From: Chromatiaceae bacterium | GTDB lineage: Bacteria > Pseudomonadota > Gammaproteobacteria > Chromatiales > Chromatiaceae | Reading direction: 5' to 3' | DNA: 64,000 nt | NCBI GenBank assembly: GCA_026984455.1 | Contig: JALSSC010000004.1 | Coordinates: 1-64,000 of the forward strand | Part shown: positions 22,736 to 62,596 of the stretch, piece after piece | Position numbering within the stretch: the stretch's first letter is position 1 | How the letters are laid out: the number at the start of each line of letters is the position of its first letter | Program-made: the position numbers and the translations under genes | Notes under the pieces: model-generated | The model's database searches: none | Told to the model about the DNA's origin: nothing | What the model saw: only the letters and a program-made list of their open reading frames with translations

Positions 22736-24883
22736 ATGCCACGCCTGTCCCTGCTCCTGTTCATCCTCCTCGCCAGCGCCCCGGCCTGGGCGGCGCAGAC
22801 GGTCCGCATCGGCATCCTCAGCCACCGCGGCACCGCGGCGACCCTGGCCCGCTGGCAGCCCACCGCCCGCTATCTGGAAGAGACCCTGGCGGACACGGCC
22901 TTCCAGATCGTCCCCCTGGATTTCTCCGAGGTGCCCCTGGCGGTGGCCCGCTCCAGGGTGGACTTCATCCTGGTGAATTCGGGGATCTACGTCGATCTGG
23001 AGGTGCGCTACCGGGTCTCGCGCATCGCCACCCTGAACAACCGCCGGGGCGACCGTGCCCTCAACCGCTTCGGCGGGGTCATCTTCGTGCGCCGCGGACG
23101 GCAGGACCTCAGAGACCTGGACGACCTGCGCGGGCGCACCTTCCTGGCCGTGGACCAGGCCTCTCTGGGCGGTTTCCAGATGGCCTGGCGGGTGTTCCAC
23201 GAGCAAGGCATCGACCCCTACCGCGATTTCCGCCGCCTGGACTTCGCCGGCACCCACGACGCGGTGGTGCTCGGGGTCCTGCACGGCAAGGCCGACGCCG
23301 GCACCGTGCGCTCCGACATCCTCGAACGCATGGCCGCCGCGGGGCGCATCCGCCTGCGCGATTTCCGCGTCCTCCACCTCCGGAGCGATCCGGATTTCCC
23401 CTTCCTGCACAGCACCCGCCTCTACCCCGAGTGGCCGTTCAGCAAGTTACGCCACACCCCCAACGCCCTCGCCCAACGGGTGGCCGTGGCCCTCTTGAGC
23501 ATGCCCCCCGACCACCCGGCCGCGGTGGCCGGCCAATACGCCGGATGGACCATCCCCCTGGACTATCAACCCGTGCACGATCTGTTCCGCGCCCTGCACC
23601 TGCCCCCTTACGACCAGGAACCCGAATTCACCCTCCAGGACGCCCTGGCGCGCTATTGGCCCGTGCTCCTCCTGGGCCTGAGCGCCTTCCTCGTAGTGAG
23701 CGCCCTGAGCGCCTGGGCGATCCGCCTCAACCGCCATCTGGCGCGGGCCAAGCGCCGCCTGGAGCAACGCCACGAACTCATCCTCAACTCCGTTGCGGAC
23801 GGGATCTACGGGGTGGACCTGGAGGGGAACTCCACCTTCGTCAATCGCGCCATGGAACGCATCACCGGCTGGAGCGCGCAGGAACTCATCGGCCGCAATC
23901 AACACGAAGTCCTCCACCACACCCGTGCCAACGGCCGGCCTCACCCACCCGAACAGTGCCCCGTGTACGCGGCCTATCGCGACAACCGCCCCCGCTTCGT
24001 CGAAGACGACCTGTTCTGGCGCAGCGACGGCAGTGCCTTCCCGGTGGAATATTCCGCCACCCCCCTGCAGGACGAGCACGGCCGCACCCTGGGCAGCGTG
24101 GTGGTGTTCCGGGACATCACCGAACGCAAACGCGCCCGGGAACAGGCCCGCCTGCGGCAACAGGAACTCACCCGGGTCGCGCGCCTCAGCACCCTGGGGG
24201 AGATGGCCTCCGGCATCGCCCATGAACTCAACCAACCGCTCACCGCCATCACCACCAACGCGCGCGCCTGCGTGCGCCTGATGGAGGCGGGCCGGGCCGC
24301 GCACCTGGGTCAGTGCGGCGATATCCTCGACAAGATCGCGGGACAGGCGGAGCGGGCCGGCGAGGTCATCCGCCAGATCCGCCGCCTGGCCCGTAAGGAA
24401 GCCCCGGAACGCAAGCCCCTCTCCCTCTCCGGCCTGATCCGCGGCATACTGGTGTTCATCGAACCGGACGCCGCACGTGCCGAAGTCGATCTCAAGGTCA
24501 CCTTCGCGGTAGAGCGGGACCAGGTCCTGGTCCAGGGCCTGCTCATCGAACAGGTGATCCTCAACCTCACCCGCAACGCCATCGAGGCCCTTTCCACCCT
24601 GTCGGGCCGCGGGCGCCGCCTGACCCTGGGGACCCGCCCCTGCGACCACACCTGTATCGAATGCTTCGTGGAGGACAACGGCCCGGGCCTGCCGCCGGAG
24701 GTGCGCGATCGCCTGTTCGAGCCCTTCGTCACCACCAAGGCCGAAGGCATGGGCCTGGGCCTTTCCATCAGCAGTGGTATCCTCTCGGCCCACGGCAGCC
24801 GGCTGGAGATGGACACCCCGGCCGAGGGTGGCACCCGTTTCCATTTCCGGCTGCCCCTGGCCGACGTGCGGAGCGAATCATGA
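22736..24883 (+). CDS. TtrS/ThsS-like sensor histidine kinase with periplasmic PhnD-type domain
   Basis: This 715-residue protein has a signal peptide and then a phosphonate-binding-like periplasmic domain (residues about 20-290, from VRIGILSHRG through DFILVNSGIYVDLE). One membrane helix follows (VLLLGLSAFLVVSALSAWAI), then a PAS domain (LNSVADGIYGVDLEGNSTFV). The HisKA domain has GIAHELNQPLTAITTNA (His496) and the HATPase domain has LTRNAIEAL, EDNGPGLP and GMGLGLSIS. This is the TtrS layout. TtrS senses tetrathionate, and the related ThsS of Shewanella senses thiosulfate. Standing between soxB and soxXA, this kinase probably senses thiosulfate or tetrathionate to control Sox genes. Its stop overlaps the regulator start (ATGA). 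Confidence 0.9.
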   Translation: MPRLSLLLFILLASAPAWAAQTVRIGILSHRGTAATLARWQPTARYLEETLADTAFQIVPLDFSEVPLAVARSRVDFILVNSGIYVDLEVRYRVSRIATLNNRRGDRALNRFGGVIFVRRGRQDLRDLDDLRGRTFLAVDQASLGGFQMAWRVFHEQGIDPYRDFRRLDFAGTHDAVVLGVLHGKADAGTVRSDILERMAAAGRIRLRDFRVLHLRSDPDFPFLHSTRLYPEWPFSKLRHTPNALAQRVAVALLSMPPDHPAAVAGQYAGWTIPLDYQPVHDLFRALHLPPYDQEPEFTLQDALARYWPVLLLGLSAFLVVSALSAWAIRLNRHLARAKRRLEQRHELILNSVADGIYGVDLEGNSTFVNRAMERITGWSAQELIGRNQHEVLHHTRANGRPHPPEQCPVYAAYRDNRPRFVEDDLFWRSDGSAFPVEYSATPLQDEHGRTLGSVVVFRDITERKRAREQARLRQQELTRVARLSTLGEMASGIAHELNQPLTAITTNARACVRLMEAGRAAHLGQCGDILDKIAGQAERAGEVIRQIRRLARKEAPERKPLSLSGLIRGILVFIEPDAARAEVDLKVTFAVERDQVLVQGLLIEQVILNLTRNAIEALSTLSGRGRRLTLGTRPCDHTCIECFVEDNGPGLPPEVRDRLFEPFVTTKAEGMGLGLSISSGILSAHGSRLEMDTPAEGGTRFHFRLPLADVRSES

Positions 24884-48497: not shown

Positions 48498-49793
48498 ATG
48501 TCATCTTTCAACACCGCCCTCTCCGGCCTCAACGCCGCCCAGACCGATCTGGACGTCACGGGCCACAACATCGCCAACGCCAGCACCGTGGGCTTCAAGC
48601 AGTCCCGCGCCGAATTCGCCGACATCTATGCCAACTCCCTCTACGACGTGAGTTCCACCGCCCCCGGCCGCGGCGTGCGCGTCTCTCGCGTCGCCCAACA
48701 GTTCAGCCAGGGCACCGTGGACTTCACCGGCAACAACATGGACCTGGCCCTCAACGGCAACGGTTTCTTCATCGTCCAGGACGGCAGCGGCCGCGAGGCC
48801 TACACCCGCGCCGGCCAGTTCGGCCTCGACCGTGAAGGGTACATGGTCACCGCCGACGGGGAGTATCTCCAGGCCTTCAAGGTCCAGGGCGACGGCACCA
48901 ACAACACCAACCCGGTATTCAACACCGGTGCCACCGACAAGGTCCAGGTGCCTCTCACCTCCGGCTCTCCCAAGGCCAGCAGCAAGCTGTTGATGGATCT
49001 CAACCTCGACGCCAACGCCGAGGCCGTGGTGGCCGGGACCGATCCCGACTTCGACCCCACCAACGCCGACTCCTATACCAGCGTGACCTCTTCCACCCTG
49101 TACGACTCGGTGGGGGCGTCCTATTCCCTCACCAGCTATTTCCGCAAGGAGGACGACGGCACGGGCAACATCACCTGGAAGCTCTACAACGTGCTGAGTG
49201 ACGCCAACGGCAACCAATTGGACCCCACCGGCAGCCCCCCCACCTACACGGCGCAGGACCTCGGCTTCAAGGCGGATGGCACCTGGGATACCTCCGTGAC
49301 CCTCTCCGATCTGGACTATTCGAGCCTGACGCTGCCCAGCGGCGGCACCCTCGGCAAGATCAAGCTGGACCTCAGCAACAGCACCCAGTATGGCCAGCCC
49401 TTCTCCGTCAACGAACTCACCCAGGACGGTTACACCGCCGGCCAGCTCTCCGGGGTGGACTTCGACCAGAGCGGGGTGATATTCGCCCGCTTCACCAACG
49501 GCTCCACCAAGGTCCTGGGTCAGGTCGCCCTGGCCGATTTCCGCAATCCCCAGGGCCTGCGCCAACTGGGTGACACCCAGTGGGGGGCCACCTACGCCGC
49601 AGGCGACGTGAAGAAGGCCTCGCCCGGCACCTCCGGCCTCGGCGTCATTCAGGCCGGCGCCAATGAACAGTCCAACGTCGACCTCGCCAAGCAACTGGTG
49701 CAGCTCATCATCGCCCAGCGCAACTATCAGGCCAACGCCAAGACCATCGAGACTGCAAACCAGATCACCCAGACCATGGTCAACATCCGCTGA
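48498..49793 (+). CDS. flgE: FlgE, flagellar hook protein
   Basis: This 431-residue hook subunit starts MSSFNTALSGLNAAQTDLDV and carries the signature HNIANASTVGFKQSRAEFAD. The middle D1/D2 domains include FTGNNMDLALNGNGFFIVQD. The C-terminal ANEQSNVDLAKQLVQLIIAQ followed by RNYQANAKTIETANQ is the axial helix. Length is normal. CTCGGAGAC precedes the ATG. It lies 11 bases before flgF. Confidence 0.97.
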   Translation: MSSFNTALSGLNAAQTDLDVTGHNIANASTVGFKQSRAEFADIYANSLYDVSSTAPGRGVRVSRVAQQFSQGTVDFTGNNMDLALNGNGFFIVQDGSGREAYTRAGQFGLDREGYMVTADGEYLQAFKVQGDGTNNTNPVFNTGATDKVQVPLTSGSPKASSKLLMDLNLDANAEAVVAGTDPDFDPTNADSYTSVTSSTLYDSVGASYSLTSYFRKEDDGTGNITWKLYNVLSDANGNQLDPTGSPPTYTAQDLGFKADGTWDTSVTLSDLDYSSLTLPSGGTLGKIKLDLSNSTQYGQPFSVNELTQDGYTAGQLSGVDFDQSGVIFARFTNGSTKVLGQVALADFRNPQGLRQLGDTQWGATYAAGDVKKASPGTSGLGVIQAGANEQSNVDLAKQLVQLIIAQRNYQANAKTIETANQITQTMVNIR

Positions 49794-49804
49794 CGGAGGG
49801 CCTC

Positions 49805-50545
49805 ATGGACCGCATGCTCTACGTGGCCATGAGCGGGGCGCGCGAGACCGCCCTCGCCCAGGCCGCCAACGCCAACAATCTGGCCAACGTGGATACCGCA
49901 GGCTTCCGCAGCGACCTGCAACAGGCCCGCGCCATGCCCCTGTTCGGCCCCGGTTATCCCAGCCGGGTCTATGCCCTCAGCGAGCGTCACCAGATAGACT
50001 TCAGCCCCGGGCCCATGCAGGCCACCGGCAACGACCTGGACGTGGCCCTGCGCGGCGACGGCTTCATCGCCGTGCAGGCCCCGGATGGCAAGGAGGCCTA
50101 CAGCCGCCGCGGCGACCTCCGCATCGACGCCAACGGCCTGCTCACCAACGGCGCCGGCCTGCCGGTGCTGGGCGACAACGGCCCCATCGCCATCCCCCCC
50201 CACGCCAAGGTCGAGATCGGCGCCGACGGCACCATCGGCATCAAGCCCGAAGGCGCCCAGGCCGACGCCCTCGCCACCCTCGACCGCATCAAGCTCGTCA
50301 AGCCCCCCCTGGCACAACTGGTCAAGGGTGAAGACGGCCTCCTGCGCACCAGGGACGGCAAGCCCCAGCCCGCGGATGCCACGGTCACCCTGGTCAAGGG
50401 CATGGTGGAGGGCAGCAACGTGGACGCGGTGGGCGCCCTGGTCACCATGATCGATCTCTCGCGCCGCTTCGAACTGCAAGTGAAAATGATGGAGACCGCA
50501 AAGAAGGACGACGAGAGCGCGGCGAGCCTGCTCAAGGCAGTGTAA
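49805..50545 (+). CDS. flgF: FlgF, flagellar distal-type rod protein
   Basis: This 246-residue protein starts MDRMLYVAMSGARETALAQA. It has NANNLANVDTAGFRSDLQQA and FSPGPMQATGNDLDVALRGD, all FlgF features, with the axial C-terminal helix VGALVTMIDLSRRFELQVKM. flgF is normally followed directly by flgG, flgH, flgI and flgJ. Here it is followed by a hairpin and an unrelated regulator, so the rest of the rod/ring operon must lie elsewhere or be lost. Confidence 0.95.
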   Translation: MDRMLYVAMSGARETALAQAANANNLANVDTAGFRSDLQQARAMPLFGPGYPSRVYALSERHQIDFSPGPMQATGNDLDVALRGDGFIAVQAPDGKEAYSRRGDLRIDANGLLTNGAGLPVLGDNGPIAIPPHAKVEIGADGTIGIKPEGAQADALATLDRIKLVKPPLAQLVKGEDGLLRTRDGKPQPADATVTLVKGMVEGSNVDAVGALVTMIDLSRRFELQVKMMETAKKDDESAASLLKAV

Positions 50546-50575: not shown

Positions 50576-50965
50576 GCACCCCGCGACCCTTGACCGACCG
50601 GATCCCGGCCCTCCCTCCACGGATCAGGCGGATCCTTCAGGATCCTTGAACCACCTCGCACAACCCCGACCGCGGCGCCCCCACGCGAAATCCCGGCCCC
50701 CTGGCGTGGTCCATCCCAACGGGGCCGCCGATCGCAAACGGATGTGACCGCTCGTCACGAGGGAACCCAGACGATGCGGTGGCGTGTGCCGGAAGAATCC
50801 ACGGGCAGGATGTCGCCGCCCCCCTCACAGTCCTCGCAATCGCGCCCAAGCCAATGGAAATCTGCCCCTCTATCCGGCACGACCGTCACTTTTCACCCGG
50901 AGCAGCCGACCCTGCCTGGCCCTAGGAGACATTCAGAAAATCCTGAAGTATTCATGCGCCGGACC

Positions 50966-50986
50966 GCTAAAATCGCTAAAATCGCT
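50966..50986. repeat. tandem nine-base repeat upstream of the signalling operon
   Basis: GCTAAAATC occurs twice in a row (50966-50974, 50975-50983) and a third copy starts with GCT. It lies 35-55 bases before the start of the HTH-receiver gene. It could be paired binding sites on one face of the helix or an AT-rich promoter element. Confidence 0.5.
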
Positions 50987-51020: not shown

Positions 51021-51602
51021 ATGCCCGAAACCACCTATCTCACCCCACGTGAGGTCGCCGAGATCCTGCACGTGGCACCGGTCACCGTACGCCACTGGGC
51101 GAGCAAGGGGTGGCTGCAGGCCGAGCGCACCCCCGGTGGACATCGGCGCTTTGCCCGCGGCGAGGTGGAACGCCTCGCACGGGAACACGGGTTCCTCCCG
51201 GTACCGGGGGAGTCGGGGGGCCTGCACGTCCTGATCGTGGATGACGACCACCAGTTCGTGCGCCTGCTGCGCGAAATGCTCGAAGGCGAACCAGAGGTGG
51301 CCCGGGTCACCCTGGCCCATGACGGCTTCGAGGCCGGGTGGCAGGTCTCTGCGGCCCGCCCCGACTTGGTGTTGCTGGACTTGCGCATGCCAGGGATCGA
51401 CGGTTTCGCCGTCTGTACGCGCCTCAAGGCCGATCCGCTCACTCGCGGGATCCGGGTGATGGCCATGAGCGGTTGTGCCGACGCAGGGGATCGCCGGCGG
51501 ATTCTCGAGGCGGGGGCCGAGGACTTTCTGGCCAAACCCTTCGATCAGGCGCGTCTGCGCCAGGCGCTGCGCCTCGCAGGGATGGAGGCCCGACGCCCAT
51601 GA
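51021..51602 (+). CDS. MerR-type HTH fused to a receiver domain
   Basis: In this 193-residue protein the DNA-binding part comes first. YLTPREVAEILHVAPVTVRH (residues 6-25), WASKGWLQ and RTPGGHRRFARGEVERL (37-53) form a MerR/BldC-like winged helix. A receiver follows from residue 69 (LHVLIVDDDHQFVRLL), with phospho-Asp in LVLLDLRMPGIDG near 119 and Lys in LAKPF near 173. Usual response regulators have the receiver first, so the order is reversed. The likely role is phosphorylation-controlled DNA binding, perhaps at the upstream GCTAAAATC repeats. Its stop overlaps the next start (ATGA), making it the first gene of a three-gene signalling operon. Confidence 0.88.
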   Translation: MPETTYLTPREVAEILHVAPVTVRHWASKGWLQAERTPGGHRRFARGEVERLAREHGFLPVPGESGGLHVLIVDDDHQFVRLLREMLEGEPEVARVTLAHDGFEAGWQVSAARPDLVLLDLRMPGIDGFAVCTRLKADPLTRGIRVMAMSGCADAGDRRRILEAGAEDFLAKPFDQARLRQALRLAGMEARRP

Positions 51603-54600
51603 ACGCCGCCACCCTGCCCCGGGACGACACGCCCTACCGCGTCCTGCTGGTGGACGACGAGAACAGCCAACGCCTGCTGCAACGGGAGATTCTCGCTGCG
51701 CCCCGCTTCGAGACCGCAGAGGCGGGCGATGGCGCCTCCGCCCTCGACGCCTTGCGCCGGGAACGGTTCGACGTGGTGCTGATGGACAAACGCATGCCCG
51801 GGCTCGACGGCGATACCGTCTGCCGGCGTATCCGCGAGGAACTGGACGACCCCCTGCTCCCGGTGATCATGGTCACCGCCCTGGGGGGCAGCGAGGACCT
51901 CACCGACAGCTTCGGTGCAGGGGCCAACGACTTCGTCCGCAAGCCCTACGCCCCCGCCGAATTGATGGCCCGGGTCGAGGCCGCCGCGGCTCACAGACGC
52001 CTGCTGGACCAGATGGAGCGGATCGAGTCGGTCTATTCCGCCATCGCCCAGGTGGTGGAGGCGCGCGATCCCGAGACCGCGGGACACTGTACCCGTCTGG
52101 CCAACAACGGGGTGTTGTTCGGCGAGTATCTGGGCCTGGATGCCGCCGCCCGGGAGACCCTCAGGCGCCTCGGCATCCTCCATGACATCGGCAAGCTGGG
52201 CATCCCCGATGCGGTGTTGCTCAAGCCCGGCCCCCTGGATGACGCGGAATGGCGCATCATGGTCAGGCACGCGGAGTTGGGTGAACGCCTCTGTGCCGGC
52301 GTGCGCAGCCTGGCCCCGCTGGCCCCCTTGATCCGCCACCATCACGAACACTGGGACGGCAGCGGCTATCCGGATGGTCTGGCCGGCCCGGCCATCCCCT
52401 ATCTGGTGCGCGTGTTCCAGGTCCTCGATGTCTACGATGCCCTGGCCTCCGCACGGATATACCGGAGCGGGACAGCGCCCACGGAGGCCCTGGCACAGCT
52501 CCGGCGTGAGGCGGATCGGGTGCTCGATCCCCATCTGGTCGGGCGTTTCATTCGTTTCCTCGAGACCGCGCCCCCGGGTTTTCTGCATCCGCCGGGCGGT
52601 GCGGGCAGCGGCGGCGATGCCCTGCCCCCCCCTGTCCCGGCGAAACCGTCCCGGCCGTCGCTCCCGGTCTTTGGCGAGCCCGCTCCGCACTACCTGCAAG
52701 CGATCCTTGACGCCACCACGGTGGGCCTGTTCGGGCTCGACGCCGAGTGTCGGGTCCAGTTCGTGAACCCCGCCGCCGGGCGTATCCTGGGCTACTCCGA
52801 GGAGGAACTCCTGGGCCATTCCCACCATGCCCGGGTGCACTACGTCCGTACCGACGGGCGGCCCTATCCCGAGCGGGCCTGCCCCATCTGTCAGGCCCTG
52901 CGTGCCGGCGAGGCCGCCGAAGGCGAAGAGGTCTTCATCCACAAGGACGGCCGTGGGATACCGGTGGCCTACAGCGTCTCGCCCCTGCCCAAGGGTGGCG
53001 GGGCGGTGGTGAGCTATCTGGACCTGAGCGAGCGCAAGGCGGCCGATCTGCACCAGCGCCTCGCGGCCACGGTCTTCGACCATACCCATGAGGGTATCCT
53101 GGTGACGGATGCCGCGGGCCGCATCCTCCAGGTCAATGCCGCCCTGTGCACCATCACAGGCTATCGGCGCGAAGAACTCCTGGACCGTAACCCGCGTCTG
53201 TTGCAGTCGGGTGAGCACCCGCCGGCCTTCTATCGCAGCCTCTGGGAGCACCTCCGCCGGCATGGCCATTGGCGCGGCGAGGTGGTGGACCGGCGCCGCG
53301 ACGGCACCCGCTTCCATGCCTGGTTGAGCATCAACACGGTCAAGGGCGATGACGGTCAGCCCACCCATTACGTGGGCCTCATCTCCGACATCACCCCGCT
53401 CAAGCGCAGCCACGAACACATCGCCTTCCTCGCCGAGCACGATCCTCTCACCGGCCTGCCCAACCGCAAGTTGCTTCAGGATCGTGTCAAGGTGGCCCTG
53501 CGCCGGGCGCATCGGGGCGATTACCCTCTGGCGTTGCTGTTCTTCGATCTCGACCGCTTCAAGGACATCAACGACAGCCTCGGTCATCAGGTGGGCGATC
53601 TCTTACTGGTAGAGGTGGCGCACCGGATCAAGGGCCTGCTGCGCGAGGAGGACACCCTGGCGCGCCTGGGGGGCGACGAGTTCGTGATCCTCCTGCACCA
53701 GATCGAGGACCGCGCGGCGGCGGAGACCGTGGCGGCCAAGGTGATCAGCTCCATGGAACGGCCCCTCAGCGTCGAGGGACACGACCTGTTCCTCGACCTG
53801 AGCCTGGGGATCGCCTTCTATCCCGAGGACGGCAGCGACTGCGACACCCTGCTCCGTCACGCCGACATCGCCCTGTATCGGGCCAAGGAACGCCCTGGCA
53901 GCGCCTTTTGTCTCCACGATCCCGCCAAGAGCACCGCACTGGAGCGCCGCCTGAGCCTGGCGACCGCCCTGCGCCGGGCCCTAGAGAGGCACGAGTTCGA
54001 GGTCCACTACCAACCCCAGGCGGCCCTCGCCGACGGTGCCCTGCGCGGGGTCGAGGCCTTACTGCGCTGGCGGCGGCCGGGGATCGGACTGGTTCCCCCG
54101 GCCGAGTTCATCTCGGTGGCCGAAGGCAGCGGTCTGATCGATCCCCTGGGCGAGTGGATCCTGCACGAGGCCTGCCGGCAGGCCGTCGCCTGGCGGGATC
54201 AAGGCCTGGAGGTCGGCCGGGTCGCGGTCAATGTCTCCGGCATGCAGATCCGCCGCGGCCGGCTGCTGGAGCAGGTACGCGAGGCCCTGGGAGAGAGCGG
54301 CCTGGCACCCGGGCGGCTGGAGCTGGAGATCACCGAGTCCATGATGATGGGAAAGGAAAAGGCCGAACTCGAACTCCTGCACGGCCTCAAGGCCCTGGGG
54401 GTGCAATTGGCGGTGGACGACTTCGGCACCGGCTATTCCTCCCTGGCCTATCTGCGCCACCTGCCCATCGACCGGCTCAAGCTGGATCTGGCCTTCGTTC
54501 GCGATCTCCCGGGCGATGCCAAGGCCGCCGCCATCGCCCGTACCGTGATCGGTCTCGGCCGCGGACTCGGTCTCGAGGTCCTCGCCGAAGGGGTGGAGGC

Positions 54601-54709
54601 CGCGGCCCAGCGCGACTTCCTCGCCGCCGCCGGTTGTCACGAGGCCCAGGGGTGGCTCTATGGCCATCCATCACCGGCCGACGTACTGGCCCGGGAGTGG
54701 GGGGCATGA
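51599..54709 (+). CDS. REC / HD-GYP / PAS / PAS / GGDEF / EAL c-di-GMP signalling protein
   Basis: This 1036-residue soluble protein has a receiver (RVLLVDDENSQRLL; Asp in VVLMDKRMPGLDG) and then an HD-GYP phosphodiesterase. The latter has HDIGKLGIP with His195-Asp196, HHHEHWDGSGYPDG with GYP at 256-258, and LDVYDALAS. Two PAS domains (about 365-480 and 490-610) lead to a GGDEF cyclase (RLGGDEFVILL, residues 691-695) and an EAL phosphodiesterase (GVEALLRWRR, Glu819; ELEITESMMM; DDFGTGYSSLAYL; AEGVEA). All signature residues are intact, so on paper one chain has one synthase and both types of c-di-GMP hydrolase. The receiver at the N-terminus would be driven by the coupled hybrid kinase. The start is fixed by the ATGA overlap. 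Confidence 0.93.
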   Translation: MNAATLPRDDTPYRVLLVDDENSQRLLQREILAAPRFETAEAGDGASALDALRRERFDVVLMDKRMPGLDGDTVCRRIREELDDPLLPVIMVTALGGSEDLTDSFGAGANDFVRKPYAPAELMARVEAAAAHRRLLDQMERIESVYSAIAQVVEARDPETAGHCTRLANNGVLFGEYLGLDAAARETLRRLGILHDIGKLGIPDAVLLKPGPLDDAEWRIMVRHAELGERLCAGVRSLAPLAPLIRHHHEHWDGSGYPDGLAGPAIPYLVRVFQVLDVYDALASARIYRSGTAPTEALAQLRREADRVLDPHLVGRFIRFLETAPPGFLHPPGGAGSGGDALPPPVPAKPSRPSLPVFGEPAPHYLQAILDATTVGLFGLDAECRVQFVNPAAGRILGYSEEELLGHSHHARVHYVRTDGRPYPERACPICQALRAGEAAEGEEVFIHKDGRGIPVAYSVSPLPKGGGAVVSYLDLSERKAADLHQRLAATVFDHTHEGILVTDAAGRILQVNAALCTITGYRREELLDRNPRLLQSGEHPPAFYRSLWEHLRRHGHWRGEVVDRRRDGTRFHAWLSINTVKGDDGQPTHYVGLISDITPLKRSHEHIAFLAEHDPLTGLPNRKLLQDRVKVALRRAHRGDYPLALLFFDLDRFKDINDSLGHQVGDLLLVEVAHRIKGLLREEDTLARLGGDEFVILLHQIEDRAAAETVAAKVISSMERPLSVEGHDLFLDLSLGIAFYPEDGSDCDTLLRHADIALYRAKERPGSAFCLHDPAKSTALERRLSLATALRRALERHEFEVHYQPQAALADGALRGVEALLRWRRPGIGLVPPAEFISVAEGSGLIDPLGEWILHEACRQAVAWRDQGLEVGRVAVNVSGMQIRRGRLLEQVREALGESGLAPGRLELEITESMMMGKEKAELELLHGLKALGVQLAVDDFGTGYSSLAYLRHLPIDRLKLDLAFVRDLPGDAKAAAIARTVIGLGRGLGLEVLAEGVEAAAQRDFLAAAGCHEAQGWLYGHPSPADVLAREWGA

Positions 54710-56658
54710 GCAGGGACGGCGAAGTCGCCCCCGAACACTGCTTCGGGCCCTTGCTCGACGCCCTGGACCAGGGGGCCTGGATCGTGAGCGGGGACGGGCG
54801 GCGCACGCTCTACGCCAACCGCGCCCTGGCCGCCATCTATGGACGGACGGTGGCGCAGATCCTCGAACATCCGGATCTATGGCTCGATGTGGTGCACCCC
54901 GAGGACCGCCCGCGGATCGCGGCCACCGCCCACACCCTCCGTGCGGAGGGCCGGGTGAGCAGCGAGTACCGGGTCCTGCGCCCGGACGGCGAGGTGCGTT
55001 GGGTCCTGGAGCAAAAGGTCCTGCTGCGCGATTCCAGCGGGACCCCGCGCTGCATGGGCGGCACCCTCCTCGACATCAGCGAGCGCAAGCAGACGGAGAT
55101 CGAACTGGAGCAGACCCGCCGTCGCGCCCAACAATATCTGGATGTGGCCGAGGTGATGCTCCTCGCCCTCGATACCGAAGGCCGGATCGAGATGCTCAAT
55201 CCCAAGGGCTACCAGGTCCTGGGCCATCCCCTCGGCAGTCTGCAAGGGGCCGACTGGTTCGCCACCTGTCTTCCCGAAGACATGCGCGAGACCGCCCGGA
55301 AACGCTTTGCGGCCCTGTTGGCGGGGGAGGTGGAAGTGCATGTCTACGCGGAGAACGAGGTCCTCACCGGTAGTGGGCGGCGGCGCCTGATCGCCTGGCA
55401 CAACGCCCTGATATATGACCGTCACGGCCACATCTGCGGCACTCTGAGTTCCGGCACCGATATCTCCGAACAGCGCGCGGCCGAGGCCGAGACGCACCAT
55501 CTCCAGCGACAGCTCGCCCAGGCACAGAAACTGGAGGCCCTGGGCCGCCTGAGCAGCGGCATCGCCCACGACTTCAACAATATCCTCGCCAGCGTCCTCG
55601 GTTTTGCCAGCCTGGCCCTGGACCGCTACGCCGGCCAATGTCCGCCCAAGGTGGTGGACTACCTGCGCGAGGTGCGGAGCGCGGGTGAGCGCGCCCGTGA
55701 CCTGGTGGCCCAACTGCTCCACTTCGGTCGTGGTCAAGGCGGCGAGGCGCAACCCCTGGCGCTGGCGCCCTTGATCAAGGAAGTGGTGAAGATGCTCCAT
55801 GCGTCTCTCACCCCCGCCATCCAGTTTCAGCTCGACCTGGATCCGGAGGTTCCGCCGGTGGAAATGGCCCCGGTGGAGGTGCACCAGATCCTGGTGAACC
55901 TGTGCATGAACGCCAGCGACGCCCTGGGCGGCCAGGGCACCATCGGTATCGGTCTCCGACGGTGGCAAGGCCCTGACGCGGAATGCGCCCTCTGCCACCA
56001 GAGGATGAGCGGTGCCTGGGTGGAACTGGTGGTGAGCGATTCGGGTTGCGGTATAGAGCCGGCGACCCTCGGACGGATCTTCGATCCCTTCTTCACCACC
56101 AAGGCCCCTGGCAAGGGCTCCGGCATGGGCCTCGCGGTGATCCGAAACATTCTCGAAGACCGTGGCGCCCATCTCCTGGTGGAGAGCCAACCCCGGATCG
56201 GCAGCCGGTTCCGCATCCTGTTCCCGCCCGCCCCTGGCGGGTCCCTCCGCCAGGACATGGGATCGCCGCTGCGCTTCCAGGCGGCCCTGAGGGGCCGCAT
56301 CCTGGTGGTGGACGACGAGGCCGCGGTGGGCTTCTGGCTCGGTGATCTGTTGCGTATGCACGGCTGCCAGGTGGAGGTGGAGCGGGATGCCCGCACCGCC
56401 CTGGAGCGCTTCGAGCGTGCCCCCAGGGCCTTCGATCTGGTGATCACCGACCTCACCATGCCCGGGCTCTCCGGCCTCGACCTGGCGGCACGTCTGCGGG
56501 CGCTGCGTCCCGATCTGGCGCTGATCCTCTGCTCCGGCCGCCATGACGCCCCGGACCCGGAGCGGGCACGGACCCTGGGGATCCGCCACCTGCTGCCCAA
56601 GCCGGTGGCCGCGGGCGATCTCCTGGGCGCCGTGGCCGAGGTCCTGGGTCGGGGCTGA
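54706..56658 (+). CDS. cytoplasmic hybrid histidine kinase (PAS-PAS-HisKA-HATPase-REC)
   Basis: This 650-residue protein has no membrane helix. It has two PAS domains (LLDALDQGAWIVSGDGRRTL near 15; VAEVMLLALDTEGRIEML near 148) and a HisKA domain with GRLSSGIAHDFNNILASVLG (His288). The HATPase has NLCMNASDALGG, VSDSGCGIEP and GKGSGMGLAV. A C-terminal receiver has ILVVDDEAAVGFWL and phospho-Asp in LVITDLTMPGLSG. A Cys-x2-Cys-His (CALCH) in the ATPase lid is a known variant loop, not a haem site. Coupled by ATGA to the giant c-di-GMP protein, it probably phosphorylates that receiver and the HTH-receiver protein. Confidence 0.93.
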   Translation: MSRDGEVAPEHCFGPLLDALDQGAWIVSGDGRRTLYANRALAAIYGRTVAQILEHPDLWLDVVHPEDRPRIAATAHTLRAEGRVSSEYRVLRPDGEVRWVLEQKVLLRDSSGTPRCMGGTLLDISERKQTEIELEQTRRRAQQYLDVAEVMLLALDTEGRIEMLNPKGYQVLGHPLGSLQGADWFATCLPEDMRETARKRFAALLAGEVEVHVYAENEVLTGSGRRRLIAWHNALIYDRHGHICGTLSSGTDISEQRAAEAETHHLQRQLAQAQKLEALGRLSSGIAHDFNNILASVLGFASLALDRYAGQCPPKVVDYLREVRSAGERARDLVAQLLHFGRGQGGEAQPLALAPLIKEVVKMLHASLTPAIQFQLDLDPEVPPVEMAPVEVHQILVNLCMNASDALGGQGTIGIGLRRWQGPDAECALCHQRMSGAWVELVVSDSGCGIEPATLGRIFDPFFTTKAPGKGSGMGLAVIRNILEDRGAHLLVESQPRIGSRFRILFPPAPGGSLRQDMGSPLRFQAALRGRILVVDDEAAVGFWLGDLLRMHGCQVEVERDARTALERFERAPRAFDLVITDLTMPGLSGLDLAARLRALRPDLALILCSGRHDAPDPERARTLGIRHLLPKPVAAGDLLGAVAEVLGRG

Positions 56659-56761: not shown

Positions 56762-58354
56762 ATGGTCCAGGCCAGGGACGGTCGGCAGACCGGTCCAAGC
56801 ACACTCATGTCACCGAACCTGCCCAATCTTTCATCCGCCGCCGCAGCGCCGCGCCGCCAGAAGATCGAACCGGAACGCCAGAACCACCAATCTTGGCGCA
56901 CTGGCAGCGAGTTGCAGGCGAGCCGCGACCGCTATGCCCAACTCTTCGAGCGCGTCCCGGTGGGCTGCCTGGTCCTGGATCCGGAGGCCCGTATCCGCGA
57001 GTCGAATCTCCGGGCCGCGGCACTCCTCGGACAGGAACCCGCGCGTCTGCGCGGGCGCCCCCTGGCCGCCCTCCTGGCCGCGGACGAGGGGCCGCGCCTC
57101 GCCGCTCATCTGCAGCGGGCGCGGGCCGGCCTGCATGGGGCATCCGCCGAGATGGCCCTGGTCGGCGGCGCCCGGGTGTGCCTGGAGAGCACGCCGCTGG
57201 ACGGGGCCTGGGATCAGGGTTGCCTGATGAGCGTGCTCCGGAAAACGAACGGGCAGCAGGTCCTGTTCGAGGCCCTGGAGGCACAGGTGGCTGCACGCAC
57301 CCGGGAACTCACCGCCACCTGCGCCCGCCTGGAACTGGCCGAGGAGCTGGCGGAGCTGGGGCGTTGGGAATGGTGGCCGGGCGGCAACCGGATCGCCTGG
57401 TCGGCCCAGGTCCATCGCATCTTCGGGATTTCCCCGGAGGCCTTCGCCGGCACCCCCGAGGCCATGCTCTCCCGGGTACATCCCGACGACCGGGAGCGGG
57501 TGGAGGCGGCGGCACGGACCGCGGTCCGCAGGGGGCAGGCCCTGGATATCGAGTACCGTATCCAGCATCCGCGGAAGGGGGTGAGATACCTGCACAGCCG
57601 CGGCCGCCCGCTGTTCGACCACCACGACCGAGTCGTGGCCCTCCACGGGGCGGTGCAGGACGTCACCATGCACAAGCGAGCGGAACGACGTCTGGCCACT
57701 CTAAGCGAGGAGAACCGCCGCCTGGCGAGGCGCTGCATGCGCATTCAGGAGGAGGAACGCCGGGCCTTGGCGCGGGAACTGCACGACGAACTGGGCCAAT
57801 ACCTCACCGCCATCGGCCTCGAGGCCTCTGCCTTGCGCCACCGCCTGCACGACCCCGTGGCCTCCACGGCCCTGGAGGAGATCGGCGCCATCGCCCAACG
57901 GGCCCTGTACCAGGCCCGGCGCATCGGCCGGCGCCTGCACCCGCCCGCCTTGGCCGAACTCGGGCTCCGGGCGGCCATCGGTGAATTGGTGGACGAGTGG
58001 CGCCACCATCTTGGTGAGGTGCGCCTGGAGACCTTCATCGGAGAGGATCTTGAAGGACTCGGGCCGCTCGCAAAACTCGCCCTGTATCGGGTGGTCCAGG
58101 AGGGGCTCACCAACGTGGCCCGGCACGCCCGGGCACAGCGGGTGTGGCTCTGCCTGGAACGCCGCGGGAGTCGTGTGCTGCTGCGCCTGCGTGACGACGG
58201 ACAGGTGGATGGATCGCCCCGGGGCGAGGGGCTGGGCCTGGTCGGTCTGCGCGAACGTATCGAGGGCCTGGGTGGCCGCCTGCGAGCGGGTCCTCTGGGT
58301 ACAGGCGGATTCCTCCTGATCGCGCGTCTGCCCGTGACCGGTCCGCCCTCATGA
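56762..58354 (+). CDS. PAS-domain sensor kinase of the NarX/HisKA_3 family
   Basis: This 530-residue soluble protein has a PAS domain at about 60-155 (LFERVPVGCLVLDPEARIRE), a coiled coil, and a second PAS of PAS_3 type at 200-310 (WWPGGNRIAWSAQVHRIFGI; VHPDDRERVEAA). The HisKA_3 box is ARELHDELGQYLTAIGLEAS (His341) and the short HATPase has YRVVQEGLTNVARHA and GEGLGLVGLRERI. Such kinases pair with NarL-type regulators, and one follows with an ATGA overlap. ATG 56762 directly follows a palindrome; ATG 56807 is an alternative. The signal is presumably cytoplasmic. Confidence 0.92.
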   Translation: MVQARDGRQTGPSTLMSPNLPNLSSAAAAPRRQKIEPERQNHQSWRTGSELQASRDRYAQLFERVPVGCLVLDPEARIRESNLRAAALLGQEPARLRGRPLAALLAADEGPRLAAHLQRARAGLHGASAEMALVGGARVCLESTPLDGAWDQGCLMSVLRKTNGQQVLFEALEAQVAARTRELTATCARLELAEELAELGRWEWWPGGNRIAWSAQVHRIFGISPEAFAGTPEAMLSRVHPDDRERVEAAARTAVRRGQALDIEYRIQHPRKGVRYLHSRGRPLFDHHDRVVALHGAVQDVTMHKRAERRLATLSEENRRLARRCMRIQEEERRALARELHDELGQYLTAIGLEASALRHRLHDPVASTALEEIGAIAQRALYQARRIGRRLHPPALAELGLRAAIGELVDEWRHHLGEVRLETFIGEDLEGLGPLAKLALYRVVQEGLTNVARHARAQRVWLCLERRGSRVLLRLRDDGQVDGSPRGEGLGLVGLRERIEGLGGRLRAGPLGTGGFLLIARLPVTGPPS

Positions 58355-58998
58355 TCAGGCAGGTGGGCCTGTTGCTGGTGGACGACCATCCGGTGGTGCG
58401 CGCCGGCCTCTGTCATCTGTTCGAGGCCGACCCGGGGCTGTGCGTCCTTGGGCATGCCGCCAGCGGTGAGGAGGCCTGCCGGCTCTATCCTGAGCGGCGG
58501 CCCGAGGTGGTGCTGATGGACCTGTCCCTGCCCGGCATGAGCGGCCTGGAGGCGGCGCGGCGCCTGCTCCAGCACCACCCCGGGGCACGTCTGCTCATCT
58601 GTACCATCCACGAGAACCCGGTGCTCGCCGAGCGCGCCCTGGTCCTGGGCATCCTCGGCTACGTGACCAAGTCGAGCGCACCCGATATTTTGATCGAAGC
58701 GGTCAAGACGGTGGCCTCGGGGCGCCGCTTTCTTTCTCCCGACATGGCCCAGGCCCTGGCCCTGAGACGCCTGGAAGGGGACGGTTCGCCATTACAGGGA
58801 CTCTCGCCGCGCGAGTTCGAGGTCTTCCGGCTGGTGGTAGAGGGACGTGGGCGTGGCGAGATCGCCGCCCTCCTGCACCTGAGCCCGAAGACGGTCTCCA
58901 ATCTGCTCAGCCGTATCCGCGGCCATCTCGGGGTCGGCTCCGACCTGGAACTGCTCCATATCGCCCTGTCTCAGGGCCTGATCGACCACCGTTTCTGA
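58351..58998 (+). CDS. NarL/FixJ-family response regulator
   Basis: This 215-residue protein has a receiver (LLLVDDHPVVRAGL; phospho-Asp in VVLMDLSLPGMSG near 55; Lys in YVTKSSAPD near 106) and a LuxR-type HTH (LSPREFEVFRLVVEGRGRGE near 152, then IAALLHLSPKTVSNLLSRIR). It overlaps the kinase by four bases. It lies just before the membrane GGDEF-EAL gene and could control it or the whole island. Confidence 0.95.
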   Translation: MIRQVGLLLVDDHPVVRAGLCHLFEADPGLCVLGHAASGEEACRLYPERRPEVVLMDLSLPGMSGLEAARRLLQHHPGARLLICTIHENPVLAERALVLGILGYVTKSSAPDILIEAVKTVASGRRFLSPDMAQALALRRLEGDGSPLQGLSPREFEVFRLVVEGRGRGEIAALLHLSPKTVSNLLSRIRGHLGVGSDLELLHIALSQGLIDHRF

Positions 58999-59155
58999 AG
59001 CCGCACCCTGCTGCGAAAGGGGCTCGGGAACTCTTCCCTGCCCTGCCGGGGCGGTTCTCCCGGCCCTTCGGGGACCTGCCCCATTCAGAATCAGTGGGTG
59101 CTTGCCGATAATCCATGGCAATCACGCCTTTCCGGGGCGTCCAGCGAGCGATCCG

Positions 59156-62100
59156 ATGCCCATCGACGAGCCCCTTCCCCAACCCTTGATCCGCAACCCG
59201 TCCTGGGTGAGGCCCGGGCTTTTTCTCCTGGGCCTGGGGCTAGGTATGGTCGCCCTCCCGGCCGCGCTGGCCGCGCTCGCGGGACCGGCCTGGCTCGCCT
59301 GGCTGCCCGCCGGCAGCGCCCTCGGCCTGGGTTGCGCGGGTCTCGGTCTGACCGGCCTCGCCGGCGACCGGCCCTGGCTCTATCGCAGCGCCGGCGCCAT
59401 CCTGGTGTTTCTCGGTCTGGTGGCGGTCCTGAACCTGTTGAATGGATTGATCACCCCCGGCAACGGCCTGCTGCCTCACGCCAACCGGGTACAGGTCTGG
59501 TTGCCGGTGAACACCGGCCTGGCCCTGCTCGCCTGCGGTGTCTCTCTGGGCCTCGGGGGGCGCCTGCGGCTCGCCCCCCTGGTGGCCGCCTATCTCGGCC
59601 TAGAGACCCTCCTCGGCCATCTCCTCGGTGCCCCGCCGGCCTACGCCTGGTTCGGGCTCGGCGGCATGACCCTGGGTGGGGCTGTGGGCCTCTGCCTGGC
59701 GGCGGCCGGCGCTCTCCTCTGGGCCTTCACCCTCGGCGCGCGATCTGTGACCGACGAGGATCCACGACGGCAGCGGGGTCGCATCCTCGGCAGCATCGTC
59801 GGCATCATGGTCCTGGCCACCCTACTGGTGGGGTTCAGTGTGGGCCGGGTGCTCTATCAGGCGGAGGTGGCGGTCGAGGCAGACCACCTTGAGCGCCAGG
59901 CCGGGCTCCTGGCGGACGTGCCGTCGATGACCCGTGGGCAGGACCTCGCTGTGGGCACGGCACCATCGGGGCCTGCCTCCCTGGTGAGCCTGGTCGCGCG
60001 GATGGAGGACGGACGGGTGCGCTGGCTCGGTCCCGTGCCCATCGCCGCCAACCCCCATGGCTGGCCCTACGAGTCCATGAGGCGTGCCCTCTCCGGCCGC
60101 CAGGGCCGGCGCGTGGACCCGGACCTCAAGGGCCGCTACTGGTTGTCGGTCTATCGGCCGCTACCGGACAAGGCATTGGGGATGGTGCTCTCCCTGCCGC
60201 TGGACCGCATCCGGGTCCAGTTCCTGCAAACCCTGCTCCTCTCCGGGGGGCTTGCGGCCCTGGTGATCGTCCTGGCCGCGCTCTGGGTGCGGATGGGCAT
60301 CGCCCCCCTGGTGCAGCGCCTGGGGGAGATCTCGGCCCTGCGCGAAAGGGCCCGCTGCCTGGACATGGAGGTACGCGAACGCACCCGCCAGATCGGCGAA
60401 CGGGAGGCCCAGCAGAGGGTCGTCAACCGCATCCTCGCCATCGGCCTCGAAGAACGGCCCTTGGCGGAGCGCCTGCAGGCCTGTCTCGCCGTCCTGTTCT
60501 CCCTGGAGTGGTTGGGCTTCCATCGGCGCGCCGCCCTGTTCGTGCGCCCCGGAACGGCCGGAAAACTGCGCTTCGCCGCCGGTTTCGATCTGGCCCCGGG
60601 GTGGCATCCAGGTTGTGACCGGATCCAGCCGGGGGAGTGCCTGTGCGGCCTGGTGGTCAATTCCGGAGAACGCCTGTACGCCGAGGCCGACGATCCGCGC
60701 CACACCCGCCCCGGCGCGACGCACCAGCCCCATGCCCACCTGATCCTGCCCCTCAAGGTGGAGGGCCGGATCCTCGGGCTGCTCAACCTCTATCCCAAGG
60801 TGGGCCATCGTCCGACCCCGTCCCAGCAGACCCTGTTGGAGGCCCTGGCCAGCGCCTTGGCCGGGGTGGTGGCCAAGGCCGAAGCAGAGGAGGCCCTGAG
60901 GCGCAGCGAGGAACGCTTCGCCCTCGCCGTGGAGGGCGCCACCGACGGGATCTGGGACTGGGACCTGAAGGCGGACCGGGTCTGGCTCTCGGCCCGCTGC
61001 GCCGCCCTCCTGGGGATGGAGGGGCGTGAGGCGTGGGTGACTCCGGAGGACTGGACCGCACGCATCCATGCGGACGACCGCTATGAGTTCGAGCGCGCCC
61101 TGCGCCGCCACCTCGCTGGAGACATGGACTCCTTTCGCTGCGAATACCGCCTGCGCACGGTCGAAGACGGTTTCGCCTGGCGCCTGAGCCGGGGCATGGC
61201 CCTGCGTGATCCCGAGGGGCATCCCTATCGCCTGGCCGGCTCCACCAGCGACATCTCCGGACGCAAGGCCATGGAGCAGGATCTGATGCGCAACGCCCTC
61301 CACGACAGCCTCACCGGCCTGGCCAACCGGGTCCTCCTCGGCGACCGCCTGCAACACGTGCTCGACCTGGTACAACGCCAGTCGGACCATGGATCCGCGT
61401 TGTTGTTCCTGGACCTGGACCGCTTCAAACTCATCAACGACAGCCTCGGCCACCTCCAGGGTGACCGCCTGCTGGAAGAGACCGGGCGACGCCTGAGCCG
61501 CCTGGTCCGGGACGGGGATACGGTGGCCCGACTCGGCGGTGACGAGTTCGTGGTCCTGCTCGAAGGCATGGACGACACCCGGAGGGTGGAAGAGGTGGCG
61601 CAGCGCATCCTCGCCGAGGTGGCCGCGCCCCTGGTGATCGGAGGCAATACCCTGGTGACCTCGGCCAGCATCGGGGTGGTGCGTATCGACGCCGCCTACA
61701 CCCGCATGGAAGAGGTGTTGCGCGATGCCGATACCGCCATGTACGCGGCCAAGGCCGAGGGGGGCAACTGTCGGGTCTATTTCCGGCCCGAGATGCGGGT
61801 CGGGGTGGAACGGCGTTTCCACCTGGAACACGAGCTGCGCCTGGCCCTGGACGAGGGCCAGTTCGAACTCTTCCTGCAACCCATCGTAACCCTGGCGGAT
61901 GGCCGCGTGGCCGGTTTCGAGGCCCTGCTGCGTTGGCGCCACCGCGAGCGGGGCCTGGTCCCGCCGGTGGAGTTCATCCCCCTGGCCGAGGAGACCGGGC
62001 TCATCCTGCCCCTGGGGCGTTGGGTCCTGACGCGCTCCCTGGAGATCCTGAAGGGCCTGCGTGAGGAATGCATGGGCGGGCGGGCGCCCTACATCAGCCT

Positions 62101-62596
62101 CAACGTCTCGCCCCGGCAATTGGCCGATCCCGATCTCGGCGGTCTTCTGGCGCGGACCCTGGAGACCACCGGGGTCCCCCCGGAGGCGGTGCGCCTGGAG
62201 GTCACCGAGAGCGCCCTCATGGCCAACCCGACACATGCGGAAGAGGTCCTCGGTGCCCTCAAGGACCAGGGGGTGAAACTGAGCATGGACGACTTCGGCA
62301 CCGGTTATTCGTCGCTCAGCTATCTCCACCGCTTCCCCATGGACGTGCTCAAGATCGACCGCAGCTTCGTGGGTAGGATCCAGACCGACGCCCGCCAGCG
62401 TGCCCTGGTGGACACCATGTTGGGCATGGCCACCCATCTGGAGATGGACGTGGTGGCCGAAGGGATCGAGGAGGAATCCCAATGTGACCAGCTCAAGGCC
62501 ATGGGCTGCATCTATGGCCAGGGTTATCTGTTCTCCCGGCCGCTGCCGGTGGACGAGGCCCTGGCCTTTCTGCAGTCCCAGGCCGAGGCCGTGTAG
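59156..62596 (+). CDS. membrane GAF-PAS-GGDEF-EAL c-di-GMP turnover protein
   Basis: This protein of about 1146 residues begins with about eight membrane helices (residues 18-225, then 222-245 and 363-385) enclosing a periplasmic segment near 250-350. A GAF domain (about 425-575, with CLCGLVVNSGERLYAEADDP) and a PAS domain (RFALAVEGATDGIWDWDLKA near 588) follow. The GGDEF (RLGGDEFVVLL, residues 794-798) and EAL (GFEALLRWRHRERG, Glu922; VRLEVTESALM; DDFGTGYSSLSYL) domains are both intact. It may make or degrade c-di-GMP depending on input. The start is ATG 59156; the frame extends to a TTG at 59102 without better support. It stands 157 bases after the NarL-type regulator. Confidence 0.93.
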   Translation: MPIDEPLPQPLIRNPSWVRPGLFLLGLGLGMVALPAALAALAGPAWLAWLPAGSALGLGCAGLGLTGLAGDRPWLYRSAGAILVFLGLVAVLNLLNGLITPGNGLLPHANRVQVWLPVNTGLALLACGVSLGLGGRLRLAPLVAAYLGLETLLGHLLGAPPAYAWFGLGGMTLGGAVGLCLAAAGALLWAFTLGARSVTDEDPRRQRGRILGSIVGIMVLATLLVGFSVGRVLYQAEVAVEADHLERQAGLLADVPSMTRGQDLAVGTAPSGPASLVSLVARMEDGRVRWLGPVPIAANPHGWPYESMRRALSGRQGRRVDPDLKGRYWLSVYRPLPDKALGMVLSLPLDRIRVQFLQTLLLSGGLAALVIVLAALWVRMGIAPLVQRLGEISALRERARCLDMEVRERTRQIGEREAQQRVVNRILAIGLEERPLAERLQACLAVLFSLEWLGFHRRAALFVRPGTAGKLRFAAGFDLAPGWHPGCDRIQPGECLCGLVVNSGERLYAEADDPRHTRPGATHQPHAHLILPLKVEGRILGLLNLYPKVGHRPTPSQQTLLEALASALAGVVAKAEAEEALRRSEERFALAVEGATDGIWDWDLKADRVWLSARCAALLGMEGREAWVTPEDWTARIHADDRYEFERALRRHLAGDMDSFRCEYRLRTVEDGFAWRLSRGMALRDPEGHPYRLAGSTSDISGRKAMEQDLMRNALHDSLTGLANRVLLGDRLQHVLDLVQRQSDHGSALLFLDLDRFKLINDSLGHLQGDRLLEETGRRLSRLVRDGDTVARLGGDEFVVLLEGMDDTRRVEEVAQRILAEVAAPLVIGGNTLVTSASIGVVRIDAAYTRMEEVLRDADTAMYAAKAEGGNCRVYFRPEMRVGVERRFHLEHELRLALDEGQFELFLQPIVTLADGRVAGFEALLRWRHRERGLVPPVEFIPLAEETGLILPLGRWVLTRSLEILKGLREECMGGRAPYISLNVSPRQLADPDLGGLLARTLETTGVPPEAVRLEVTESALMANPTHAEEVLGALKDQGVKLSMDDFGTGYSSLSYLHRFPMDVLKIDRSFVGRIQTDARQRALVDTMLGMATHLEMDVVAEGIEEESQCDQLKAMGCIYGQGYLFSRPLPVDEALAFLQSQAEAV

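Follow-up and report, generated by a model that had tools for sequence, protein, structure and literature searches.

A rare HD-GYP, GGDEF and EAL fusion protein within a conserved HTH-receiver and kinase module of a Chromatiaceae bacterium

How a cell would govern a single protein equipped with domains both for making and for degrading c-di-GMP is the question raised by a locus of a Chromatiaceae bacterium (assembly GCA_026984455.1) on contig JALSSC010000004.1, of which positions 1 to 64,000 of the forward strand, 64,000 nucleotides in all, were analysed and are here called the window. Positions 51,021 to 56,658 hold three overlapping genes, all on the plus strand (Table 1), and homologous operons are found in other genomes. 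A preliminary description had read this segment as an ATGA-coupled operon in which a hybrid kinase and a pair of response regulators form one unit, one chain carrying three c-di-GMP domains that look intact. The open reading frames and both overlaps exist where it placed them, and Pfam confirms the domains of the unit, finding HD_5, GGDEF and EAL behind Response_reg in the second gene product, together with two PAS domains absent from that description. Because homologues elsewhere have identical gene order and ATGA overlaps, the reading frames of all three genes are real. None of five proteins scanned against NCBIfam exceeded an equivalog-type cut-off among the matches listed, and the five are therefore without an established name.

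Table 1. Features of the operon and its upstream region (window positions; aa, residues of the encoded protein)
Feature	Positions	Strand	Evidence or remark
Perfect 9-bp tandem direct repeat CGCTAAAAT/CGCTAAAAT/CGCT, predicted HTH-REC operator	50965..50986		Repeat search
Gene 1, HTH-receiver response regulator, 193 aa	51021..51602	+	Pfam, NCBIfam, BldC structure matches
ATGA stop/start overlap, genes 1/2	51599..51602	+	Also present in G110 and G105
Gene 2, REC-HD-GYP-PAS-PAS-GGDEF-EAL response regulator (fused protein), 1036 aa	51599..54709	+	Pfam, motifs, AlphaFold2
Response_reg of fused protein, aa 15-127, predicted phospho-acceptor D63	51641..51979	+	Pfam, motif alignment
HD-GYP (HD_5 aa 149-313), all PmGH metal-ligand positions present	52043..52537	+	Pfam, PmGH alignment
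PAS 1 of fused protein, aa ~370-480	52706..53038	+	Pfam
PAS 2 of fused protein, aa ~492-599	53072..53395	+	Pfam
GGDEF, aa 612-765, GGDEF motif and RxxD inhibitory site	53432..53893	+	Pfam, motifs
EAL, aa 790-1024, full motif set	53966..54670	+	Pfam, motifs
ATGA stop/start overlap, genes 2/3	54706..54709	+	Also present in G182
Gene 3, soluble hybrid histidine kinase PAS-PAS-HisKA-HATPase_c-REC, 650 aa	54706..56658	+	Pfam

The catalytic motifs of HD-GYP, GGDEF and EAL are all present in the fused protein. Aligned to PmGH, the HD-GYP domain has eight of eight ligands (E159, H163, H195, D196, H224, H248, H249 and D277), K199 as the equivalent of PmGH K225, and the HDxGK and HHExxDGxGYP motifs. We take the PmGH metal-ligand assignment to include the glutamate that completes a three-metal site, to which E159 corresponds. 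This position is Tyr in the orthologue of genome G110 and Ser in that of G105, and the glutamate is likewise missing in the stand-alone relatives aligned; judged by the alignment, the HD-GYP of the window is alone among its relatives in resembling PmGH here. HD-GYP domains without this glutamate can be two-metal enzymes. The GGDEF domain has FFDLDRFKDIND, RLGGDEF and the metal Asp, with an RxxD I-site (REED) five residues upstream, and the EAL domain has EALLRW, NVS, EITE, DDFGTGYSSL, the lysine, AEGVE and QG. The acidic pocket, Asp, Thr/Ser and Lys of response regulators are found in the products of both gene 1 and gene 2. In the AlphaFold2 model of the fused protein (pLDDT 88) the domains are confident and their arrangement is uncertain (pTM 0.51); residues 331-361, exactly at the junction between HD-GYP and PAS-PAS-GGDEF-EAL, form a disordered linker. 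As far as the sequence goes, the wording "apparently active" used earlier for the three domains applies to residues alone.

The architecture is rare in the genomes searched. A query with the N-terminal half against 210 family genomes matched the fused protein solely in its own genome and in G110, G105 and G182, and the whole protein, queried against 195 family genomes, was again confined to these four. No HD-GYP, GGDEF and EAL fusion was found in class-wide and phylum-wide genome samples, nor among 80 named HD-GYP loci. Across 246 loci with 141 distinct HD-GYP frames, 30 of the frames carry GGDEF, and HD-GYP together with EAL is confined to the same four genomes; in one survey, five of the 27 HD-GYP frames with GGDEF belong to the fused family itself. 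These distribution searches scored the best two to eight candidates per genome, so that distant triples could escape, and the triple fusion is rare among relatives, as distinct from a census. The idea of a common architecture was rejected within the same scope, the fusion being found in four genomes of its own family only. Literature searches yielded no specific description of the triple architecture or of HTH-REC/HD-GYP modules. The preliminary description had conceded that its point would fall if architecture and operon proved common and already characterised; the architecture turned out to be uncommon, whereas the module around it, of HTH-REC, REC-HD-GYP and hybrid kinase, is widespread.

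This module is what gives the fusion its context. Its parts would be a BldC-like HTH regulator with a C-terminal receiver, a REC-HD-GYP phosphodiesterase and a soluble PAS kinase, usually hybrid. The genes of the closest stand-alone REC-HD-GYP orthologues (44-53% identity) adjoin the same HTH-REC gene in 19 of 19 loci with a readable neighbourhood (nine of genus g4, eight of other families, namely G686, G878, G813, G704, G854, G802, G715 and G784, one of Methylobacter and one of a gammaproteobacterial MAG). As a control, the same HTH stood beside none of 18 less related HD-GYP loci (flanks of about 1.5 kb). A PAS hybrid kinase completes the module in at least seven cases (G878, G813, G704, G715, G784, Methylobacter and the gammaproteobacterial MAG). 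In the tree, the fused HD-GYPs form one clade (support 100/99) nested among stand-alone REC-HD-GYPs, which makes a single fusion event most likely; the GGDEF-EAL half from G105 is too diverged for placement. Trees and architecture show that in a few family members a PAS-PAS-GGDEF-EAL protein has become attached to the C-terminus of a REC-HD-GYP protein, and on sequence comparison the fused protein is a lineage-specific fusion inside a pre-existing module that is kept as separate genes in the same class. The conserved module itself, with the predicted repeat operator discussed below, is what the present analysis adds to the preliminary description. With unfused versions of the module at hand for comparison, the fused chain is well suited to a clean test of what governs opposing c-di-GMP domains.

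Genus g4 has a split version of the locus (L150 6284-15335, L153, L155 and L156), with HTH-REC and REC-HD-GYP beside a divergent kinase of 1000-1600 aa and, in addition, a small receiver and a REC-PAS-GGDEF-EAL protein; in g4 genomes REC-HD-GYP and REC-PAS-GGDEF-EAL lie 6-8 kb apart, around the divergent large kinase. The receiver Asp of REC-HD-GYP is replaced by Asn or Glu in several g4 loci, which suggests a loss of phosphorylation control there. The split g4 locus was considered as direct ancestor of the fusion and dropped, because the tree groups the fused HD-GYPs with other class genomes and places g4 GGDEF-EAL elsewhere.

What the fused chain would do with its three domains can be weighed on its orthologues and nearest relatives. 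Fused-protein operons orthologous to that of the window occur in G110, G182 and G105, the G182 copy being cut by the contig end, with a PAS hybrid kinase adjoining the fused gene. The kinase gene of G110 is split over two reading frames (L116 6397-9068; frameshift or assembly error). No GGDEF or EAL motif is lacking in the window, G110 or G182, and those of HD-GYP and GGDEF are intact in G110 and G105. The G105 operon (L118 4333-9457) is decaying: its EAL is degenerate (ExLxR, the Asn and the DDFGTG loop are gone), no HTH is left in its first gene and its kinase is without a receiver, while HD-GYP and GGDEF are kept. All three lost elements are dispensable in G105, and conservation of the triple activity is not general, EAL being degenerate in one of the fused orthologues.

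The NCBIfam profiles that score highest on the fused protein are the phosphodiesterases DibA, PdeR and DosP (DibA at 671 against a cut-off of 980), and the closest PDB structures to its GGDEF-EAL half are RmcA/PA0575 (5M3C, 48% identity), MorA and DosP. With closest structures and profiles mostly named phosphodiesterases, net c-di-GMP breakdown is the best guess, and by analogy the fused protein would most likely be a net phosphodiesterase; the retained GGDEF motif and RxxD site mean that it may act as a net diguanylate cyclase under some input. A truly trifunctional switch, in which GGDEF makes and HD-GYP and EAL degrade c-di-GMP while receiver phosphorylation against PAS ligand decides the direction, would fit the three intact motif sets of the window and those retained in G110, in G105 for HD-GYP and GGDEF, and in G182 for EAL. 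We nevertheless regard it as doubtful, given the names borne by the nearest GGDEF-EAL relatives, the degenerate EAL of G105 and the fact that residue retention alone does not prove activity. At the other extreme, the GGDEF-EAL half could be a c-di-GMP/GTP sensor or a partner-binding platform with HD-GYP as the sole working enzyme. The module had HD-GYP as its ancestral output, and in G105 this domain outlasts the EAL motifs, but the complete EAL motifs of the window, G110 and G182 make this reading unlikely.

The kinase would feed this protein and the gene 1 regulator. Three receivers and one kinase had been taken to suggest a phosphorelay, and this default reading was dropped since the operon has no HPt: Pfam detects no such domain in the three proteins. 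A His-Asp-His-Asp relay through the kinase receiver to both response regulators could draw on that receiver, whose acidic pocket, Asp and Lys are intact, and on the 13 HPt matches found in other parts of the genome, one of which falls in a frame of only 176 aa. None of these is linked to the operon, however, and with the receiver missing from the G105 kinase a multi-step relay appears very improbable. Direct phosphotransfer from the kinase histidine to both response regulators is preferred, for want of an HPt partner in the operon, and would be the simpler arrangement.

The gene 1 protein consists of a BldC/MerR-type HTH (aa 6-56; Pfam MerR/HTH_17) followed by a receiver (aa 70-184). Its HTH matches the BldC structures 6AMK and 6AMA (E 3e-9), and against the NCBIfam profile NF033787 (HTH_BldC) it scores 64.7 bits, below the cut-off of 77; by analogy it may work like BldC, though outside the family as filed. 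BldC binds 9-bp direct repeats head-to-tail, with the consensus AATTXXXX(C) (PMC5859096). The DNA-contacting Lys26 and Arg30 of BldC are Val and His in the gene 1 protein, and its base preference must therefore differ.

The repeat of Table 1 sits about 35-55 bp upstream of the gene 1 start codon, and similarity at period 9 recurs upstream of HTH-REC orthologues, as in G110 (AAAATCGAT AAAATCGAT ACTATCGAT TATAACGAT) and G715 (GATAAAATC GCTAAATCC GATAAATCC GCTATTATC), with comparable arrays in G704, G802 and G784. Combined over orthologues, with random windows drawn from the same loci as the control, period 9 gives a Fisher P of about 1e-5 (an approximate value, since the 17 loci include relatives and are not fully independent), whereas periods 6-8 and 10-13 are not significant in the same test (P 0.2-0.97). 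The window's own array by itself gives P 0.08, and the strength of the signal is in the orthologue set rather than in that array. No sigma-70 promoter was found beside the window array; in G704, G813 and G802 a TATAAT lies 15-22 bp downstream of the array, so that the array occupies the -35 position. Arrays are absent upstream of the Methylobacter gene and of most g4 HTH-REC genes. This patchiness, with the modest value for the window, would fit a chance or AT-rich low-complexity feature without operator role; we think such an origin rather unlikely in view of the enrichment of period 9 alone, of the unit TAAAATCG common to the window, G110 and G715, and of a scan of the window's own genome in which the operon repeat is the only perfect match. 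A regulon scan of that genome gave no second convincing site, and in G110 the operon alone stands out; these unique sites suggest local autoregulation. Because BldC binds 9-bp direct repeats and such repeats precede the operon, the HTH-REC protein likely autoregulates its module through the predicted operator. Upstream of more distant HTH-receiver genes (L163, L173, L175 and L181) period-9 arrays also tend to occur (P 0.07-0.15 each), and this operator type may be general for the regulator family.

The operon stands directly behind flgF, which makes motility a reasonable candidate for the target process. Genes flgE and flgF end just before it (48498-50545), but flgH is on a different contig (C31), which leaves the flg cluster divided; the neighbours examined around the fused operon of G105 are not flagellar. 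Immediately after the operon comes a second two-component pair, a UhpB/NarX-like kinase with PAS-PAS-HisKA_3 domains and a LuxR response regulator resembling GacA/UhpA (56762-58998), whose genes overlap by ATGA at 58351-58354. A GAF-PAS-GGDEF-EAL protein of 1164 aa is encoded further on (59102-62596), so that signalling genes run continuously for about 11.6 kb behind flgF. Elsewhere in the window (22736-24883) lies a PAS histidine kinase fused to a phosphonate-type periplasmic binding domain.

Taken together, the operon is probably a compact, fused version of a class-conserved module, fed by its kinase, serving mainly c-di-GMP breakdown and autoregulated at the 9-bp repeats. The enzyme activities, phosphotransfer and DNA binding that we infer for its proteins would combine in a single circuit. 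The PAS domains of the kinase would sense a cytoplasmic cue, leading to autophosphorylation on the HisKA histidine, and phosphate would pass directly to the receivers of the gene 1 and gene 2 proteins, with the kinase's own receiver tuning or draining the kinase. Phosphorylation of its receiver would control the HD-GYP of the fused protein, and the PAS pair would control the GGDEF-EAL half. In RmcA, the GGDEF domain reportedly activates EAL in a GTP-dependent manner; the GGDEF-EAL half is probably a unit of this RmcA/DosP type, in which GTP binding by GGDEF would activate EAL. The net output would be mainly c-di-GMP breakdown under two inputs, while the gene 1 protein would bind the upstream repeats head-to-tail in BldC fashion and set expression of the whole module. 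A more demanding version, in which the phospho-switched BldC-like protein assembles head-to-tail on the repeats to control its own module and HD-GYP, GGDEF and EAL all work, with receiver and PAS deciding which way and by what route c-di-GMP is turned over, seems unlikely to hold in full.

Among known systems, RpfG-type REC-HD-GYP regulators share the order of receiver and HD-GYP, the HDxGK and HHExxDGxGYP motifs and an adjacent kinase gene, but the protein described here continues into a C-terminal PAS-PAS-GGDEF-EAL and is partnered by a soluble PAS hybrid kinase and an HTH-receiver protein. RmcA (PA0575), MorA, DosP and DibA resemble its second half in their PAS-GGDEF-EAL order, with 48% identity to the RmcA structure, but are without the N-terminal REC and HD-GYP. 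The GGDEF-HD-GYP fusion proteins likewise combine HD-GYP with an opposing c-di-GMP domain in one chain, although they are without EAL, and are common. For the regulator, the receiver is similar to PDB 3CNB, annotated as a MerR-family DNA-binding response regulator (E 2e-21, with only the receiver aligned). Streptomyces BldC (PDB 6AMA/6AMK) shares its HTH, including the conserved GGHRR wing, with the gene 1 protein, and 9-bp direct repeats are the DNA site expected for the latter too; unlike BldC, the gene 1 protein carries a receiver behind the HTH. With receiver, BldC-like HTH and predicted 9-bp operator in one setting, both the switching of BldC-type filaments by phosphorylation and their tie to c-di-GMP breakdown become directly testable.
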